The translations under genes were made by a program, and so were the position numbers. The notes beneath the pieces were generated by a model, which was not told the origin of the DNA, did no database searches, and saw only the letters and a program-made list of their open reading frames with translations. A stretch of 64,000 bases of DNA from an uncultured Aquimarina sp. (lineage in GTDB: Bacteria > Bacteroidota > Bacteroidia > Flavobacteriales > Flavobacteriaceae): contig CANLEM010000002.1 of assembly GCA_947489685.1 (NCBI GenBank), positions 558,001 through 622,000 on the forward strand. The letters run 5' to 3'. Below, piece by piece: positions 40,293 through 49,166 of this stretch; the stretch's first letter is position 1; every line of letters begins with the position of its first letter.

Positions 40293-41408
40293 TTATTTCC
40301 AATTATATGCCCAGTCTTTCCAGACAACATCTAGGCCTTTTTGCCTTAACATAGCTACCACAGCTTCTGTAGGCCGTTCGTCTGAGATTTCGAATTGTTC
40401 TAGAGATTGTGGTTCTACGACATAACCACCAGGATTTGTTTTAGACTCTGCACTAATTGATGTTATTCCTAAACCAACAACGTTTTCTCTAAACACTTCA
40501 CTCTCTCGAGTAGACATTGATAATTCTACGTCTTCATCTAATAACCTGTATGCACAAATTAATTGAACCAAATCTGAATCGGTCATAGCTACTTTGGGCT
40601 CTAAACCTCCAGAATGTGGCCGTAATCTTGGAAATGATATTGAATATTTTGTTTTCCAGTAGGTCTTTTGCAAATACTGTAAATGTAAGGCCGTAAAAAA
40701 GCTATCGGCTCTCCAATCTTCTAATCCAAATAATGCTCCTAACCCAATTTTATGAATTCCTGCACGACCTAATCGATCTGGTGTCTCTAGTCTATATTCA
40801 AAATTAGACTTTCGGCCCTTGGGGTGATGTTTCTTATATTCTTCTTTATGATAGGTTTCTTGATACACTAATACGGCATATAATCCGTTTTGGATTAGCA
40901 TTTCGTAATCTGTCTGATCCAATGGCTGTACTTCAATGGTAATATTGGCAAATTTTGATTGTATGAGTCTAATTGCATTATTAATATAATCTACTCCTAC
41001 TGTTTTGTTGGCTTCGCCTGTAACCAAAAGTATGTGATTATAGCCTTTAGATTTTAAGAAATCTATTTCTTTTAAAATTTCTTGATCCGTTAATGTTCTT
41101 CTGGGGATTTTATTAGTCATACTAAACCCACAATATGTACATATATTTTGGCATTCATTGCTCAAATACATCGGCGCATACATTTGTATTGTATTTCCAA
41201 AGCGCTTTTTGGTTATAGCACTACTTAGCTGCGCCATCTCTTCTAAATAGGGTTTGGCAGCAGGTGAAATTAACGCTTTAAAATCTTCGAGATTACGGCT
41301 GGATTTATGCAGAGCTTGCAATACATCATTTTCATTTTTTGCAAGAATTTCGGATAAAGTTTCATCCCAATTATACTGATCAAATATGTTTTTAAAATCA
41401 CTATTCAT
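40293..41408 (-). CDS. thiH: 2-iminoacetate synthase ThiH
   Basis: 371-residue radical SAM enzyme that cleaves tyrosine to dehydroglycine (2-iminoacetate) for the thiazole ring of thiamine, the oxygen-independent alternative to ThiO. The CxxxCxxC cluster motif is in [15 protein letters not shown], and the ThiH-type [14 protein letters not shown] follows near the C-terminus. The start overlaps the end of thiG by eight bases. It is the last gene of the thi operon. Confidence 0.97.
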
Positions 41409-42171
41409 TTAAAAAACTTGTTAACGGGCTGCTAGCCTCTGCATGTTGTTTCATTGGAGCTAATTTTGCATTATACGCCATCCGACCTGCCTCAACGGCC
41501 ATCTTAAACGCTTTTGCCATTTCTATAGGTTGTTGCGATACTGCAATAGCTGTATTTACCAGTACAGCATCAGCACCAATCTCCATAGCATGGGCAGCAT
41601 GTGATGGACTTCCGATACCTGCATCCACTATTACAGGCACATTGCTTTGTTCGATTATAATTTCTAAAAACTCTAATGTTTTTAACCCTTTATTACTACC
41701 TATTGGTGCTCCTAATGGCATTACACACTGGGCACCTACTTCTTCGAGACGTTTGCAAAGTACCGGGTCTGCATGAATGTAAGGCATAACTACAAATCCC
41801 AGTTTCACCAATTCTTCTGCAGCCTTTAACGTTTCGATTGGATCGGGTAATAAATATTTTGGGTCTGGATGAATTTCTAGTTTTATCCAATTCGTTTCTA
41901 AAGCTTCGCGAGCTAGTTGGGCTGCAAAAACTGCTTCCTTGGCATCTCGAACCCCTGATGTATTTGGTAACAAATTAATTCTGGGATGATCTAGGTGACT
42001 TAAAATATCATCATTTTCATTATTCACATCAACTCTTTTGAGAGCTACTGTAATCAATTCGCTCTCTGATTCGAGCAATGCTTTTCTCATCAAATCAGAA
42101 GAACTAAATTTTCCTGTTCCTGTAAATAAACGAGATGAAAATTCCTTATCTGCAATCTTTAGTTTATTCAT
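41401..42171 (-). CDS. thiG: thiazole synthase
   Basis: 256-residue TIM-barrel enzyme combining deoxyxylulose phosphate, iminoacetate and the ThiS thiocarboxylate into the thiazole phosphate. Recognised by [13 protein letters not shown], the [13 protein letters not shown] region, and the phosphate-binding [31 protein letters not shown]. Its ATG overlaps the thiE stop by one base (TAATG), so translation is coupled. Confidence 0.97.
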
Positions 42172-42803
42172 TACTTTAGACTATACGTGTTTTTTATATT
42201 TTCAATCTTTTCTTTTAAATTGTTTTGGTTCGTAAGCATTCCTGAAACTGCAACTCCAGACAAACCTACATCCATGAGGTCTTTAACATCCTTTTCGATT
42301 ATCCCTCCGATTGCGATTACTGGCACATTAGCACTAAAGTTTTTCAACTTTGAGAAAATACTTTTATATCCATCAATCCCCAATATTGGACTTAATTTAT
42401 TTTTTGTAGTTGTATGTCTATAAGGTCCTAGACCTATATAATCTACTCCTGATTCAATATGTTGTCTGCAATCATCAATAGTATTTGCTGTGCCACCAAT
42501 AATGAAATTGTTACCTAAAATTTTTCTTGCTTCATTGATACTAGTATCTGTTAACCCTAAATGAACACCATCTGCCAAAACCGCTTTAGCAACGCCAATA
42601 TTATCATTAACAATCATTATAGCTTCATATTGATCACAAATATTTCTACATTTCATAGCTGTCTCAAGATATGTAGCGATATCAGTATTTTTTAAACGTA
42701 ATTGAATCCATCTACCTCCCGCATCACAAACATTTTTAATATTAGAAAGATGCTCTTGAGGAGTAACCCCTTGTGATATGTATTGTAATTGAATTTCTTT
42801 CAT
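42171..42803 (-). CDS. thiE: thiamine phosphate synthase
   Basis: 210 residues. Joins HMP diphosphate with thiazole phosphate to thiamine phosphate. [43 protein letters not shown] and the closing [12 protein letters not shown] are the diphosphate- and thiazole-binding elements of true ThiE. It is the more canonical of two ThiE/TenI-fold proteins in this operon (the other is at 43600). It lies between thiD and thiG, and its stop overlaps the thiG start. Confidence 0.94.
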
Positions 42804-42814
42804 CTTAGTATTAG

Positions 42815-43579
42815 TTATATTTTATGATATCCTAATAATGTTTTGTTTGAACTCAATATCTTTTCTGTATATCTTTTTCCTCTGAAACATGCTTTAACCA
42901 AAGGAAAACCTAATACCAATTGAGCCGTAATTGCAGAAGAAAGGACACAACCGCTTCCGTGTTTGTCAGAACAGTTATTTCTTTTAGGTTTTAATACAAA
43001 ACGCTTTCCGCTCTTTGTGAATAATTCGTCTTTTCCTATATCTTCATTTCTATGACCTCCTTTTAAAAGCAGATTTGTTTTTGTACTTATATATTTTATA
43101 GTTTCTTGAATTGTTCTATCATGATATAATTTTTCAATTTCCAGATAATTTGGAGTCAATAAGTATATCTTACTTAAAATTGTATCAAACTGTTGTCTTG
43201 AATTTATTTGACTAGATGGATCATGAAAATCAAAACTCGAGCTTGAGCTTAATATTGGATCCCAAATTATGTTTAGTTTAGGATTTTTAGACAGTAATAC
43301 ATCAACAATTTCATGCAACACATTCCAATTTTCTATGATCCCGATTTTTACAAAATCAATGGCAAAACGATCAAATAGTAAATCAATCTGACGTTTCATC
43401 AATTCAATACTTGTCCAATGGCATGATGTAAAATCAATATCATTTTGAACCGTATTCGCTGTACAAACAGATAATCCATATACTTTTAATGCTTCAAAAG
43501 TTTTGACATCTGCCGTGATTCCTGCTCCATTAGATGGATCAAATCCAGCAATTGTTAGGGTATATGGACGTTGTTTCAT
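42815..43579 (-). CDS. thiD: hydroxymethylpyrimidine (phosphate) kinase
   Basis: 254-residue ribokinase-fold enzyme that phosphorylates hydroxymethylpyrimidine and its phosphate. The N-terminal TIAGFDPSNGAGITADVKT and the anion-hole motif DKHGSGCVLSSAI are clear. It is a little shorter and more diverged than E. coli ThiD but keeps the catalytic Cys-containing motif. Spaced 11 bases from thiE and 20 from the TenI-like gene, within the thi operon. Confidence 0.93.
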   Translation of the reverse strand: MKQRPYTLTIAGFDPSNGAGITADVKTFEALKVYGLSVCTANTVQNDIDFTSCHWTSIELMKRQIDLLFDRFAIDFVKIGIIENWNVLHEIVDVLLSKNPKLNIIWDPILSSSSSFDFHDPSSQINSRQQFDTILSKIYLLTPNYLEIEKLYHDRTIQETIKYISTKTNLLLKGGHRNEDIGKDELFTKSGKRFVLKPKRNNCSDKHGSGCVLSSAITAQLVLGFPLVKACFRGKRYTEKILSSNKTLLGYHKI

Positions 43580-43599
43580 CTGTGTTTTCTTAAAAGTAC

Positions 43600-44205
43600 T
43601 TATCTATCTTTTTTAATAGTTTTAAGCGTGTCATAAATGGCTTGAAAACTCTCTAAAGGTTTCTCTGCATTCCATATTCCGCCCAAAACACCAACACCTT
43701 TGTATCCAAGATCAAATGTTGCCTGTAAGGTCTTTTGGTTAATCCCGCCCATTCCTATTACGAATGCGTCTAGATCATTTACATCAAAACCTTTTCCTTG
43801 ATATCCCGCTTTTGAAATTGAACCAAAAACCGGACTCAGTAACACATATTCAAAATCAACAATACAATTTTTGATATCTTCTTTAGAATGAAAAGAACTG
43901 CTTACTTTCAGGCCTTTGTTTTCATAACTTTTCACATATTCTTCTAGTGTATTACCCAAATCCAATCGTGGTTGTTCTTGAATATGAATACCTCTAAGAT
44001 CAAACTCCAGACATAATTCATGAAACTGATGTAGCATTATTCGGTTGTGATATTTATCTTCTATCTCACCAAGTAACATCCTATACCCCTCAATATCCAG
44101 AGTCGGTTTTCTAAAATGGAGTACATCTAATCCTTTTCGAAAAAGTTCATTAATCTGATGAGATTCATTTTCTAATTCCCGTTCTGATGTAAGTATTATT
44201 AGCAT
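43600..44205 (-). CDS. second ThiE/TenI-fold protein
   Basis: 201 residues of the ThiE/TenI TIM-barrel fold, much diverged from the canonical ThiE two genes downstream. It keeps LDVLHFRKP, HQFHELCLEFDLRGIHI, SSSFHSKEDI, YVLLSPVFGSISKAGYQ and FVIGMGGI, but lacks the clean diphosphate-binding pattern. It could be a second thiamine phosphate synthase or a TenI-like thiazole tautomerase, which in Bacillus aromatises the ThiG product. The place between thiC and thiD is usual in Bacteroidota, so it is a conserved member, not a random duplicate. Confidence 0.82.
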   Translation of the reverse strand: MLIILTSERELENESHQINELFRKGLDVLHFRKPTLDIEGYRMLLGEIEDKYHNRIMLHQFHELCLEFDLRGIHIQEQPRLDLGNTLEEYVKSYENKGLKVSSSFHSKEDIKNCIVDFEYVLLSPVFGSISKAGYQGKGFDVNDLDAFVIGMGGINQKTLQATFDLGYKGVGVLGGIWNAEKPLESFQAIYDTLKTIKKDR

Positions 44206-44217
44206 TGCATGTTCTTA

Positions 44218-46125
<1,908 letters not shown>

Positions 46126-46326
46126 CTACCCACCTTGGGTGGCTTTTATAATCGTTATATTGTCGTTTTCCTCTACAATAGCCCGATCCCACCTTTCTTT
46201 TGTAATTATTTCATTATTAATAGCTATAGCTATTCCATTAGTAGCAATATTCAAATGCTTCAATAACATATAGACTGAAGTATTTTCTGAAATGGATTGG
46301 GATTGATTATTAACGTTTATGGTCAT
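46126..46326 (-). CDS. thiS: sulfur carrier protein ThiS
   Basis: 66-residue ubiquitin-fold carrier. It ends in the Gly-Gly needed for adenylation and thiocarboxylation (KATQGG), with IAIAINNEIITKERW and DNITIIKATQ as family landmarks. It is the first gene behind the TPP riboswitch. Codons 2-4 (46315-46322 on the minus strand, CCATAAAC) are complementary to a leader segment, so its translation is probably the controlled step. The activating enzyme ThiF is not encoded in this operon. Confidence 0.94.
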   Translation of the reverse strand: MTINVNNQSQSISENTSVYMLLKHLNIATNGIAIAINNEIITKERWDRAIVEENDNITIIKATQGG

Positions 46327-46398
46327 ATCATTGTTTAGATTAATCCATAAACTTTAGGCTACGTGCACCTTTTTAAAGAAGATAAATCACACGGTATC

Positions 46399-46496
46399 TG
46401 TGATATTAACTTTTCCCTTCGTCGGTACTAACCGCATCAGGTTCAAAGGGTATTTCTCAGACCTAACCTAAGTTAAGGACACCCCTAAAGTTTATG
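46399..46496 (-). promoter_or_regulatory. TPP riboswitch of the thi operon
   Basis: The minus strand shows the TPP aptamer in order: AGGGGTGTCC, GTCTGAGAAATACCC, GAACCTGATGCGG, ACGAAGGGA, with P1 formed by AACTTT (46492-46487) and AAAGTT (46413-46408). A near-consensus -7 box (TATTTTTA, 46500-46507) lies just upstream. The 5' arm CATAAACTTTAGG is fully complementary to 46358-46346, so P1 competes with a 13-bp alternative helix. Controls thiS through thiH. Confidence 0.96.
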
Positions 46497-46515
46497 TTAT
46501 AAAAATAGTAAAAAC

Positions 46516-46539
46516 CTATATATAATTAATACTATATAG
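46516..46539 (-). terminator. weak A/T hairpin after the thiamine TonB receptor
   Basis: CTATATA and TATATAG enclose a 10-base loop, and on the minus strand GGTTTTTACTATTTTT follows. A weak but plausible end for the receptor transcript before the thi promoter. Confidence 0.35.
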
Positions 46540-46547
46540 ACTCTAAA

Positions 46548-48935
46548 TTAAAATTTTAAAGTTGCACCCAGTAAGAAATTAATTCCTGCCTGAGGATAGA
46601 AACCTGCACCTTCGACTGTTGTTACTGTTCCTGGGTTTGAAAAATCATCATCAAATGTGAAAAAAAATCCGTTTGACACATATTCTTCATCAAATACATT
46701 ATTTACCAATCCAGTAAGTACAACCGACTTAAAAATTGGGATGTTTTTGATTTCATAAATAATATTGAGATCATTTATAAAAAAGCTATCTAATTTTGAT
46801 GTCTCGCTATCAATATTCCCCATATACTGTTCTCCTACAAATTTGGACAAGAATCCTAGTTGAAGATTTTTTAAAGGTTGATAAATAAACATATTACCTG
46901 CCACTACGTTTGGCGAATACGAAATATTGGTATTCCCAAGATTAACCAAACTACCATCTCTAGAGGTTACAAAATCTTTATTCTTATTTGTGCTTACAGC
47001 TACATTGGGTTTTACTACGAATTTATCCGAAAGTCTTATATCCGCGTCTATTTCAATTCCCAAACGAAAGCTTTCGCCGCTAGTCGCTCTAATTGGCGCT
47101 CCAACATCATCTAATGCTCCTGTTAATACCAATTGATCTTTATACCACATATAGTAAATATTAGTATTTACTATGGTCTTATTTTTTGAAAATCTCCAAC
47201 CTAACTCAATGTCATTTAATTGTTCGGCAGTATTAATACCATTTTCAAAATCACTTCTTCTTGGTTCTCTATTAGCCCTGGCATAAGAAACATACAATTG
47301 GTTGCCATCATTAACTTGATAAGTTGCTCCTAATTTTGGGTTGAAGAATTCGTATGTTTCATCTACTTCTAACGCAACTCTATCAGAAGTCAAACCAGAA
47401 GTTTCATAATCAACAAAACGCCCTTGCAAGTCTACAAAAGCTGACCATTTATCATCAATTCTATAGGTAGTTTTTCCAAAAATGGTAAATTCATTTTTTG
47501 TTCCATTACCAAAATAATAATTATCCCGTATCTCTGATCCCCCAGCATTTTGAGCCCAGATGACTTCGCCAAAATGATCTCCATCATAGTGGCTATAAAA
47601 AGCTCCAAAATCTACATCCCAATTACTGTTCTTATAATTGGCCGAAGCGTTTACTACATAGAAATCATTATCCAACCATCGCCTGCGGATCAAATCTGTT
47701 GTATTAATGGTTTCTCCTCCAATCACAATGGGTGTAAAATCATAAAATGCAAAATCTTCGTCTTCCTTATATTGCTCAAAAAAACCTCTTCCGTATGTAT
47801 AGTTTAGTCCTAAGTTTGTAGACCAATGGTTATTATATCGTTGATTCCAATGTAATTGATAATGATCTTGTTTATAGTTATCTACTTCATTATCATAGAA
47901 ACGAGTATCTCCATTTTCATCGGTATATAATCCGGCAGGATTAAAAGTTCGATCGGTATCTAATGTGGCTTGATCAATCCCAAACCACGATTGATAGGTT
48001 ATCTCATGCCCTCCAAAAGCAACGGCCTTGATCAATGTATTATCATCTACAAAAGACCCCTGTAAAAAGTAAGATTTTAAATCTGAAGAAGCTCGATCGA
48101 TATATCCATCTGATGCTATAGCAGATAAGCGCCCGGCAATCTCAATATGTTCATTGATCAATCCGGTACTAAATTTTACATTGTGTCTTCTGGTACCAAA
48201 AGAACCAAACGAATTTGATATTTCGGCATTTGCAACCTCAGAAACAGCATCTGTAAGCAAGTTTAAACTAGCTCCAAAAGCACCAGAACCATTTGTTGAA
48301 GTTCCTACACCACGTTGCAATTGTAAATTTTCTATCGAAGATGCAAAATCGGGCAAATTCACCCAAAACGTCCCCTGGCTCTCGGCGTCATTAAATGGTA
48401 TCCCATTTAAGGTAACATTTACTCTAGATGCATCACTGCCTCGAACTCTAATGTAGGTATACCCAATTCCTGTTCCTGCATCTGTAGTAGTTACTACTCC
48501 AGGTAAATAATTTAATAATATCGGAATGTCTTGACCTAGATTGCGCTCTGCCAACTCTTCTTTAGATAAATTCGAATGAGTAATTGGAGAATCGGCATCT
48601 ACACGAATTGATTTCACCAAAACTTCATCTAGTTTCTCTAGAACTTCTTCGAGCTGTACATTTATCGCATTGTCTTTTATTAAATCAACAATTCGCTCTA
48701 CTCTTTCTGTACCTTGGTAGCTAAAAACTAGGGTGTATGTTTCTTTTTCTAAATAAAAACTGAACTCCCCTTCGGTATTTGTTTGTATCCCCGTTGTAGT
48801 TCCTTTAATGCTAACTGTTACACCAGATATAGGTTGTTGATTTTGATCGGTAACTATACCCGATAACTGAAATTCTTGAGCAAGAATCTGACTACAGCAC
48901 AGCAAGATTGTAATGCAAAATATTATGTGTTTCAT
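46548..48935 (-). CDS. TonB-dependent receptor under TPP control, probable thiamine transporter
   Basis: 795-residue outer-membrane receptor. The signal peptide ends about residue 20 (LAQ). A carboxypeptidase-D-like domain (LSGIVTDQNQQPISGVTVSIKG) covers about 20-105, then the plug (LSKEELAERNLGQDIPILL, GYTYIRVRGSDASRVNVTLNGIP), then a barrel ending in LLGATLKF. A TPP riboswitch in its leader and the adjacent thi operon strongly suggest import of thiamine or a phosphate ester of it, as proposed for riboswitch-linked TonB receptors in Bacteroidota. The start codon lies in a hairpin (48934-48956), the likely point of control. Confidence 0.9.
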   Translation of the reverse strand: MKHIIFCITILLCCSQILAQEFQLSGIVTDQNQQPISGVTVSIKGTTTGIQTNTEGEFSFYLEKETYTLVFSYQGTERVERIVDLIKDNAINVQLEEVLEKLDEVLVKSIRVDADSPITHSNLSKEELAERNLGQDIPILLNYLPGVVTTTDAGTGIGYTYIRVRGSDASRVNVTLNGIPFNDAESQGTFWVNLPDFASSIENLQLQRGVGTSTNGSGAFGASLNLLTDAVSEVANAEISNSFGSFGTRRHNVKFSTGLINEHIEIAGRLSAIASDGYIDRASSDLKSYFLQGSFVDDNTLIKAVAFGGHEITYQSWFGIDQATLDTDRTFNPAGLYTDENGDTRFYDNEVDNYKQDHYQLHWNQRYNNHWSTNLGLNYTYGRGFFEQYKEDEDFAFYDFTPIVIGGETINTTDLIRRRWLDNDFYVVNASANYKNSNWDVDFGAFYSHYDGDHFGEVIWAQNAGGSEIRDNYYFGNGTKNEFTIFGKTTYRIDDKWSAFVDLQGRFVDYETSGLTSDRVALEVDETYEFFNPKLGATYQVNDGNQLYVSYARANREPRRSDFENGINTAEQLNDIELGWRFSKNKTIVNTNIYYMWYKDQLVLTGALDDVGAPIRATSGESFRLGIEIDADIRLSDKFVVKPNVAVSTNKNKDFVTSRDGSLVNLGNTNISYSPNVVAGNMFIYQPLKNLQLGFLSKFVGEQYMGNIDSETSKLDSFFINDLNIIYEIKNIPIFKSVVLTGLVNNVFDEEYVSNGFFFTFDDDFSNPGTVTTVEGAGFYPQAGINFLLGATLKF

Positions 48936-48956
48936 TCGTAAATGATTTTTACGAAT
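48934..48956 (-). promoter_or_regulatory. start-codon hairpin, expression platform of the second TPP riboswitch
   Basis: On the minus strand ATTCGTAAA, loop AATCA, TTTACGAAT: a perfect 9-bp stem that includes the first two bases of the receptor's ATG and the region just before it. Immediately upstream, ACCCCTTTT (48965-48957) is complementary to AAAGGGGT of the aptamer. Confidence 0.6.
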
Positions 48957-49060
48957 AAAAGGGGTAATTACTCTACTATTAAAATTGATTATAACACCTA
49001 CAGAATTAACTGAACAGTATATTTCACCCTATACTATAATATCTAAACATACTTATAGTT

Positions 49061-49158
49061 TTGGCAGTCCCTTGGCAGCATTACCTGCCCAGGTTCATCG
49101 GGTATGATCTCAGCTTAGTCCTGAAGTATAACCTTCAGGCGTTAGCACCCCTTTGAGA
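49061..49158 (-). promoter_or_regulatory. TPP riboswitch of the TonB receptor
   Basis: The minus strand carries CAAAGGGGTGC, an extended P3a arm (CCTGAAG, GTTATA, CTTCAGG), GCTGAGATCATACCC, GATGAACCTG, GGCAGGTAATGCTGCC and AAGGGA, the complete TPP aptamer. A promoter lies just upstream (49167). About 125 bases separate it from the receptor ATG. This accounts for most of the gene-free stretch 48936-49262. Confidence 0.96.
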
Positions 49159-49166
49159 TTTCTGCG

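Follow-up and report, generated by a model that had tools for sequence, protein, structure and literature searches.

The closest described counterpart of the leader considered here is the TPP riboswitch of E. coli thiC. According to the portions of the report drawn on here (PMC5234074), its TPP aptamer goes with a free-state anti-P1 helix incompatible with P1 and with the sequestering stem alike, its bound state hides the start codon, and its logic depends on the order of transcription: the anti-P1 form is not predominant in the free full-length RNA and is favored in a halted complex. In sequestor/antisequestor riboswitches more generally, as set out in the relevant part of PMC2258182, the ligand breaks an exclusive antisequestor pairing and the sequestor then forms, hiding the ribosome binding site. 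Nearer in phylogeny, B. thetaiotaomicron carries TPP riboswitches before thiS, OMthi and pnuT, and thus shares phylum, aptamer class and kinds of genes with the present case (excerpts of PMC5613172 and PMC7366714). There, the sections cited report that thi operon mRNA falls with thiamine, 9.2-fold for thiC and 2.7-fold for thiS, from which a part acting at the level of mRNA may exist, and they describe the mode of action of Bacteroidetes TPP riboswitches as uncertain as of 2017 (PMC5613172). Bacteroidia ribosomes do not use Shine-Dalgarno pairing (parts of PMC6847099 and PMC9976891), and in F. johnsoniae initiation is tuned by structure between -20 and +20 (PMC6847099, in part). A search of open-access full texts, in the portions available, returned no Bacteroidota TPP riboswitch described with a start-codon scheme and no flavobacterial or sphingobacterial leader with its pairings laid out, which leaves absence in print unproven. 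The title of a 2019 preprint by Costliow, Degnan and Vanderpool reportedly claims transcriptional or translational control in Bacteroides, and this preprint may already give a pairing scheme for that genus.

Here we describe a thi leader from a 64-kb stretch of the genome of an uncultured Aquimarina (the window), in which a TPP riboswitch probably shuts off the thi operon by hiding the thiS start codon; we put this reading, in which TPP would bind and drive the switch, at a probability of roughly 0.8. In mechanism it corresponds to the scheme of E. coli thiC, with the Shine-Dalgarno element replaced by the start codon and coding bases: whereas the E. coli stem hides the ribosome binding site and the AUG (PMC5234074, in the portions used here), and general sequestor riboswitches hide the ribosome binding site (PMC2258182, likewise), the elements hidden here would be the AUG and thiS codons 2-4. 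In keeping with the difference, no GGAG-like stretch was found among the bases between the switch strand B and the ATG (ATTAATCTAAACAATGAT). The anti-P1/P1/sequestor scheme is already known from E. coli thiC; what differs here is a sequestor that reaches into codons, in a phylum without Shine-Dalgarno pairing.

Architecture of the thiS leader and its operon

The sole match in the window at the Rfam curated cut-offs is a TPP riboswitch aptamer (THI element, RF00059) on the minus strand at 46397..46496. Its assignment follows from a score for aptamer sequence and structure above the curated cut-off (74 versus 54.3 bits) and from the thiamine genes thiS and thiC downstream on the same strand. All further features of the leader and operon are likewise on the minus strand. 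thiS, the first gene of the operon, spans 46126..46326 with its ATG at 46326-46324 (TIGR01683, 67.7 bits, cut-off 37.45). In the remaining thi operon (40293..46077), NCBIfam models identify ThiC (44218-46077), a clear ThiE (42171-42803) and ThiH (40293-41408) over cut-off, a ThiE/TenI-like protein (43600-44205) under every cut-off listed for the gene, and an HMP-P kinase-like protein (42815-43579) under cut-off. The product of 41401-42171 is named by no NCBIfam model and is presumably ThiG, a label taken from its position in the operon. Two genes of the ThiE/TenI type, 43600-44205 and 42171-42803, thus occur in one thi operon.

The leader begins with the aptamer 5' arm A (CATAAACTTTAGG, 46484..46496), which can pair with the P1 3' strand AAAGTT (46408..46413), recognized by inspection and folding. 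Directly 3' of P1 lies a hairpin found by local folding, H1 (ATCACA/TGTGAT, 46386..46404), and after it a U-rich tract (TTATCTTCTTT, 46375..46385) that might act as a pause site. A small hairpin E (AGGT/GCCT, 46356..46370), which shares part of its 3' arm with the start of B, appears in predicted folds of leader segments: it is weak in this genome, where one of two window segments folded gave another hairpin in its place, and stronger in several relatives. The switch strand B (CCTAAAGTTTATGG, 46345..46358) has two potential partners. Its core (CCTAAAGTTTATG, 46358-46346) forms a 13-bp helix with A in the ON state, and its segment GTTTATGG (46352-46345) pairs in the OFF state with C (CCATAAAC, 46322-46315), which covers the second and third bases of thiS codon 2 together with codons 3 and 4. 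In effect, the coding sequence thereby contains, as C, a partial copy of A. With A common to P1 and A:B, and B common to A:B and B:C, the helices are mutually exclusive, as expected of an anti-P1 arrangement.

On re-inspection, the letters and coordinates that an earlier, sequence-only reading had given for A, B, C, P1 and the start codon proved exact, and the perfect 13-bp A:B helix that it claimed is present; when the linker was dinucleotide-shuffled 5000 times, no shuffle gave a helix of this length, the longest being 11. In the 64-kb window, 22 13-mer positions have a perfect inverted repeat no more than about 160 nt away, so that such repeats are not in themselves rare and the weight of A:B rests on its conservation. 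Of 5000 shuffled versions of the start region, 91 gave a helix as long as the 8-bp B:C, which on its own is thus only mildly unusual and needs comparative support. That reading had also placed the start codon in a loop between B and C. Its sequestration is borne out by the predicted OFF fold, and the open loop gives way to an extension of the B:C stem, in which UUAAUC (46343-46338) pairs with GAU (46329-46327) and UGA (46325-46323). The start-codon side of the predicted sequestor accordingly comprises these stretches and C (46315..46343), with the U and G of the AUG in the stem (probability unpaired 0.27 and 0.23) and its A bulged.

A two-codon out-of-frame ORF, ATG ATA TGA (46331-46323), overlaps the thiS start codon (ATGATATGACC), and the same arrangement is found in three relatives (L157, L030 and L206). 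Near-start extra AUGs are under-represented in Bacteroidetes, according to the part of PMC6847099 used here.

Conservation, covariation and codon constraint among related leaders

Parsing of 258 loci gave 159 distinct thiS leaders, the rest being duplicates, other genes or unparsed (L007 and L119 are unparsed). One leader with a linker above 200 nt (L006) was dropped. The 158 used comprise a genus set of 40 (Aquimarina-type), 54 of the Pedobacter/Mucilaginibacter type, a group that includes a few metagenome bins assigned to it by title, and 64 others. Named loci are aptamer pattern matches among those listed and unnamed ones are mostly the best-scoring aptamers of each search; this choice of loci biases the sample toward similar aptamers. 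A quick tree built for the 40 genus-set leaders from their downstream thi genes makes Aquimarina sp. AU474 (L157; SH-aLRT 100) the sister of the window, which is accordingly Aquimarina-like. Just upstream of A (46497-46530) lies a TTTTATTACTTTTATAA-like stretch that is found again in most of the 20 genus-set leaders inspected for it and resembles the Bacteroidetes -7 promoter box; as such a box it would put the transcript start adjoining A.

The sequence-only reading had proposed an alignment of related thi leaders, and held that its scheme would fall if B and C were neither conserved nor covarying in them. Across the 40 aligned genus-set leaders, they are conserved and change together: 96.6% of the B:C cells are paired, versus 28.1-62.5% when slid by 1-3 columns, and 92.1% of the A:B cells, versus 27.9-64.9% when slid. 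B:C has eight cells changed on both sides (shuffled mean 2.4, matched by none of 500 shuffles, best slide 5). The corresponding count for A:B is five (shuffled mean 1.4, attained in 1 of 500 shuffles), with the qualification that a slide of +3 columns yields six, more than the true structure. The number of B:C pairs with double changes, two, is not unusual (315/500 shuffles). P1 cells are paired in 92.1% of cases; four of its six pairs never vary, there is no double change, and P1 hence carries no covariation information. Individual leaders illustrate the coordinated changes: in L025 and L034, B ending in TATAG is matched by C CTATAAAC, through a synonymous change of Thr ACC to ACT, and in L028, B ending in TATGA is matched by C TCGTAAAC, while its A (TTTG) is matched by B (CCCG). 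On the tree, the B site changed three times and the C site four times. Independent pairs of B and C changes number two on well-supported branches, in the same direction (p 0.5), and three on all branches, too few for significance. Three leaders (L017, L018 and L177), in one clade with L117 and L124, have no convincing A:B, and blocking B in L017 and L018 gave no gain in opening of the start.

The thiS codons 2-4 keep the codon versions required by B. In counts that ignore shared ancestry, the codon slot at the end of C has Asn as AAC in 38 of 38 cases, with Ser AGC in the other two of the 40 leaders, and the preceding slot has Ile as ATA (30/30) or Val as GTA (10/10). By comparison, in the 29 ORFs of the window with 250 aa or more, 208 of 796 Asn codons (26%) are AAC, 306 of 1124 Ile codons (27%) are ATA and 391 of 817 Val codons (48%) are GTA, and the Asn two codons downstream of the C slot is AAC in only 15 of the 40 leaders. 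Synonymous recodings of the first codons, made with matched codon use, that pair with B as well amount to at most 5 in 100 for 32/40 leaders of the genus set, 27/54 of the Pedobacter type and 18/64 of the others; in this last group C is often upstream of the ATG, where B:C is beyond the reach of a recoding test. Start regions taken from other groups were as good with B in at most 5% of draws in only 21/40, 39/54 and 28/64 leaders, respectively.

Across all 158 leaders, A pairs better with the linker than with an ORF stretch of the same length in 139; at most 1 in 100 shuffles gave an equally stable A-linker pairing in 54 leaders and at most 5 in 100 in 77. The median distance from the end of B to the ATG is 14 nt. 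To score the effect of B on initiation, B was defined by pairing to A alone, and the cost of opening a target region from 6 bases before to 12 into the ORF was computed with B occupied. In a first ranking against all windows along the leader, 51 of 155 leaders had B among the best 10% (three having been removed by size limits); windows that overlap B share its effect and blur this ranking, and it was therefore replaced by non-overlapping windows (eight removed) and position-matched shuffles (four removed). In the Aquimarina leader itself, occupying B lowers the opening cost by 6.5 kcal/mol and beats all 21 non-overlapping windows. B beats every such window in 121 of 150 scored leaders and at least 95% of them in 129, with a median gain of 4.6 kcal/mol versus 0.0 at other windows (L177 unscored); in 10 of the 150, more than 20% of the other windows did as well as B. 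Against position-matched shuffled linkers, the median gain is 4.9 kcal/mol for real versus 0.7 for shuffled sequences (154 leaders), with the real gain above all 30 shuffles in 78 leaders and equaled or exceeded by no more than one of the 30 in 104.

Order of folding and mode of control

Folding the leader with and without its aptamer pairs, a check suggested by the sequence-only reading, gave the contrast that it anticipated: the start region is predicted to close with the aptamer pairs enforced and to open with A:B enforced, the mean unpaired probability at 46330-46312 being 0.17 and 0.56, respectively. The bound-state stem is thus predicted to cover the translation start. The ensemble energies are -39.2 kcal/mol with the aptamer pairs and -49.6 kcal/mol with A:B, from which ligand binding must pay roughly 10 kcal/mol. 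The unconstrained ensemble lies at -51.2 kcal/mol with B:C formed, and in the full-length window RNA without ligand A:B is a minority form (0.11-0.12). A pure equilibrium switch was accordingly rejected for the window: full-length folding favors B:C even without TPP, so that A:B must win during transcription, before C emerges, and the switching scheme, as modeled, has to be kinetic.

Predicted folds of the lengthening transcript without ligand follow such an order. P1 stays at about 0.70 up to a 3' end at 46384 and is down to 0.09 by 46370, before B is made, a loss that speaks against the scheme; A:B then reaches 0.98 for 3' ends from 46346 to 46325, that is, from the completion of B until C begins to emerge; and once C is transcribed B:C dominates, with swings (0.82 at 46310, 0.43 at 46300 and 0.88 at 46290). 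Across the genus set, 37 of 40 leaders have an A:B probability of 0.5 or more once B has just been completed, and 9 of 40 have it at full length. By this analysis of transcript lengths, a bound aptamer must hold A until C is out, and an unbound one loses A to B.

The mechanism proposed from these results runs as follows. The aptamer would be the first part of the RNA to be transcribed, and H1 with its U-rich tail might, at a guess, impose a pause that gives TPP time to bind. With TPP bound, P1 would keep arm A occupied, and the emerging B would pair with thiS codons 2-4, in a helix extending through the AUG that would prevent ribosomes from starting. With no TPP, B would capture A on emerging; A:B would exclude P1 and keep B off C, leaving the start codon open, and ribosomes loading between the transcription of B and that of C could keep it so. 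The pairings, their conservation, some covariation, the codon constraint and the predicted order of folds were computed, and we infer TPP binding, ribosome exclusion, control of translation and the timing in cells. The earlier scheme of A:B as the ON state and P1 plus B:C as the OFF state thereby gains support from conservation, from covariation and from the opening of the start codon by B.

Other explanations were weighed against this one. The complementarity of B and C might be a by-product of a conserved MTIN/MTVN N-terminus and of start regions in general, with B conserved as a copy of the P1 3' strand. The ThiS start is indeed conserved as protein, some shuffles reach B:C, as counted above, and independent double changes are few; yet synonymous recodings in the genus set seldom pair with B as well, the codon versions are fixed within C and free two codons later, and in L025, L034 and L028 a change in B is accompanied by one in C, all of which makes this account very improbable. 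Transcription attenuation, with H1 and its U-rich tail as a terminator whose formation TPP would decide, is also unlikely, if slightly less so. Local folding gives a hairpin at the H1 position as the best structure in each of the 40 genus-set leaders, with a mean pair probability of at least 0.5 in the longer transcript in 35 and at least five T within eight bases after it in 30, and mRNA-level repression is described for the relative B. thetaiotaomicron in the part of PMC5613172 cited above. However, H1 is short and A+T-rich here and went unflagged by a terminator scan, which found no terminator-like site on the leader strand, where a terminating TPP riboswitch would carry a ligand-dependent intrinsic terminator. 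Its median probability in the 40 leaders is 0.935 with arm A free and 0.945 with it unavailable; a response to arm A is seen in the folds of L029 (0.43 to 0.94) and L177 (0.09 to 0.88). H1 as a ligand-gated intrinsic terminator is therefore unsupported in the window, with a negative scan and a probability of 0.97 in both states, and attenuation leaves the conservation of B and C unexplained.

A less easily dismissed alternative keeps the translation switch and attributes much of its output to loss of mRNA, by Rho or decay, following blocked translation or pausing near the start. Both effects are combined in E. coli thiC, where polymerase pauses at the start codon and Rho terminates transcription (PMC5234074, in the sections cited), and thi mRNA falls with thiamine in B. 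thetaiotaomicron (PMC5613172, as above), but both precedents come from other genera; we regard such a mixed mode as a possibility to be kept in mind, with the odds somewhat against it. The preferred reading remains the kinetic switch at the thiS start codon.

Distribution across Bacteroidota and significance

The same leader design appears to recur in many related bacteria, with a movable partner site: in Aquimarina C occupies codons 2-4, many Pedobacter have it in codons 1-5, and in several other leaders it adjoins or overlies the ATG. A deeper set of 90 loci from phylum and class searches, 74 of them parsed (27 thiS, 47 other genes) and 16 unparsed, gave a weaker signal: A:B was matched by at most 5 in 100 shuffles in 8/27 thiS and 10/47 other-gene leaders, and the gain test by at most 1 in 30 in 10/27 and 7/38, respectively. 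An extension to the whole class was accordingly rejected; the design is not universal in deeper Bacteroidota.

Other start-codon hairpins came to light beside it. Two thi leaders of another family (L031 of G036 and L003 of G049) have an apparent short sequestor hairpin, ATTCCTAAA..TTTAGGAATGG, over the start codon, whose 3' arm copies the TTTAGG of the aptamer. In the window, a second, weaker TPP riboswitch (49051-49162, minus strand; 42.2 bits, below the cut-off) precedes a gene for a TonB-type receptor (46548-48935), for which a predicted 13-bp hairpin, TTTTATTCGTAAA/TTTACGAATGAAA (48930-48960, minus strand), contains the whole start codon. Each of the 17 leaders that could be parsed among 19 loci scanned is predicted to form a hairpin of 11-13 bp in which all three bases of the start codon are paired.

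With slightly more confidence than doubt, we propose that, in bacteria that do not use the Shine-Dalgarno interaction, the hidden element of TPP riboswitches has been transferred to the start codon and the first few codons. The first gene would thus lend its coding sequence to the riboswitch, carrying a partial copy of the aptamer 5' arm and synonymous sites constrained by RNA pairing; the partner site would have shifted between the 5' leader and codons 2-5 across lineages with the logic kept, and the decision would fall in the short interval between the transcription of B and that of C. Such a scheme offers a concrete answer to how a riboswitch may control translation in a large phylum without Shine-Dalgarno pairing, namely by using coding bases to conceal the start codon. 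Synonymous sites at the starts of genes behind riboswitches would then be regulatory, with a bearing on annotation, on codon analysis and on the building of TPP-responsive gene control in Bacteroidota.
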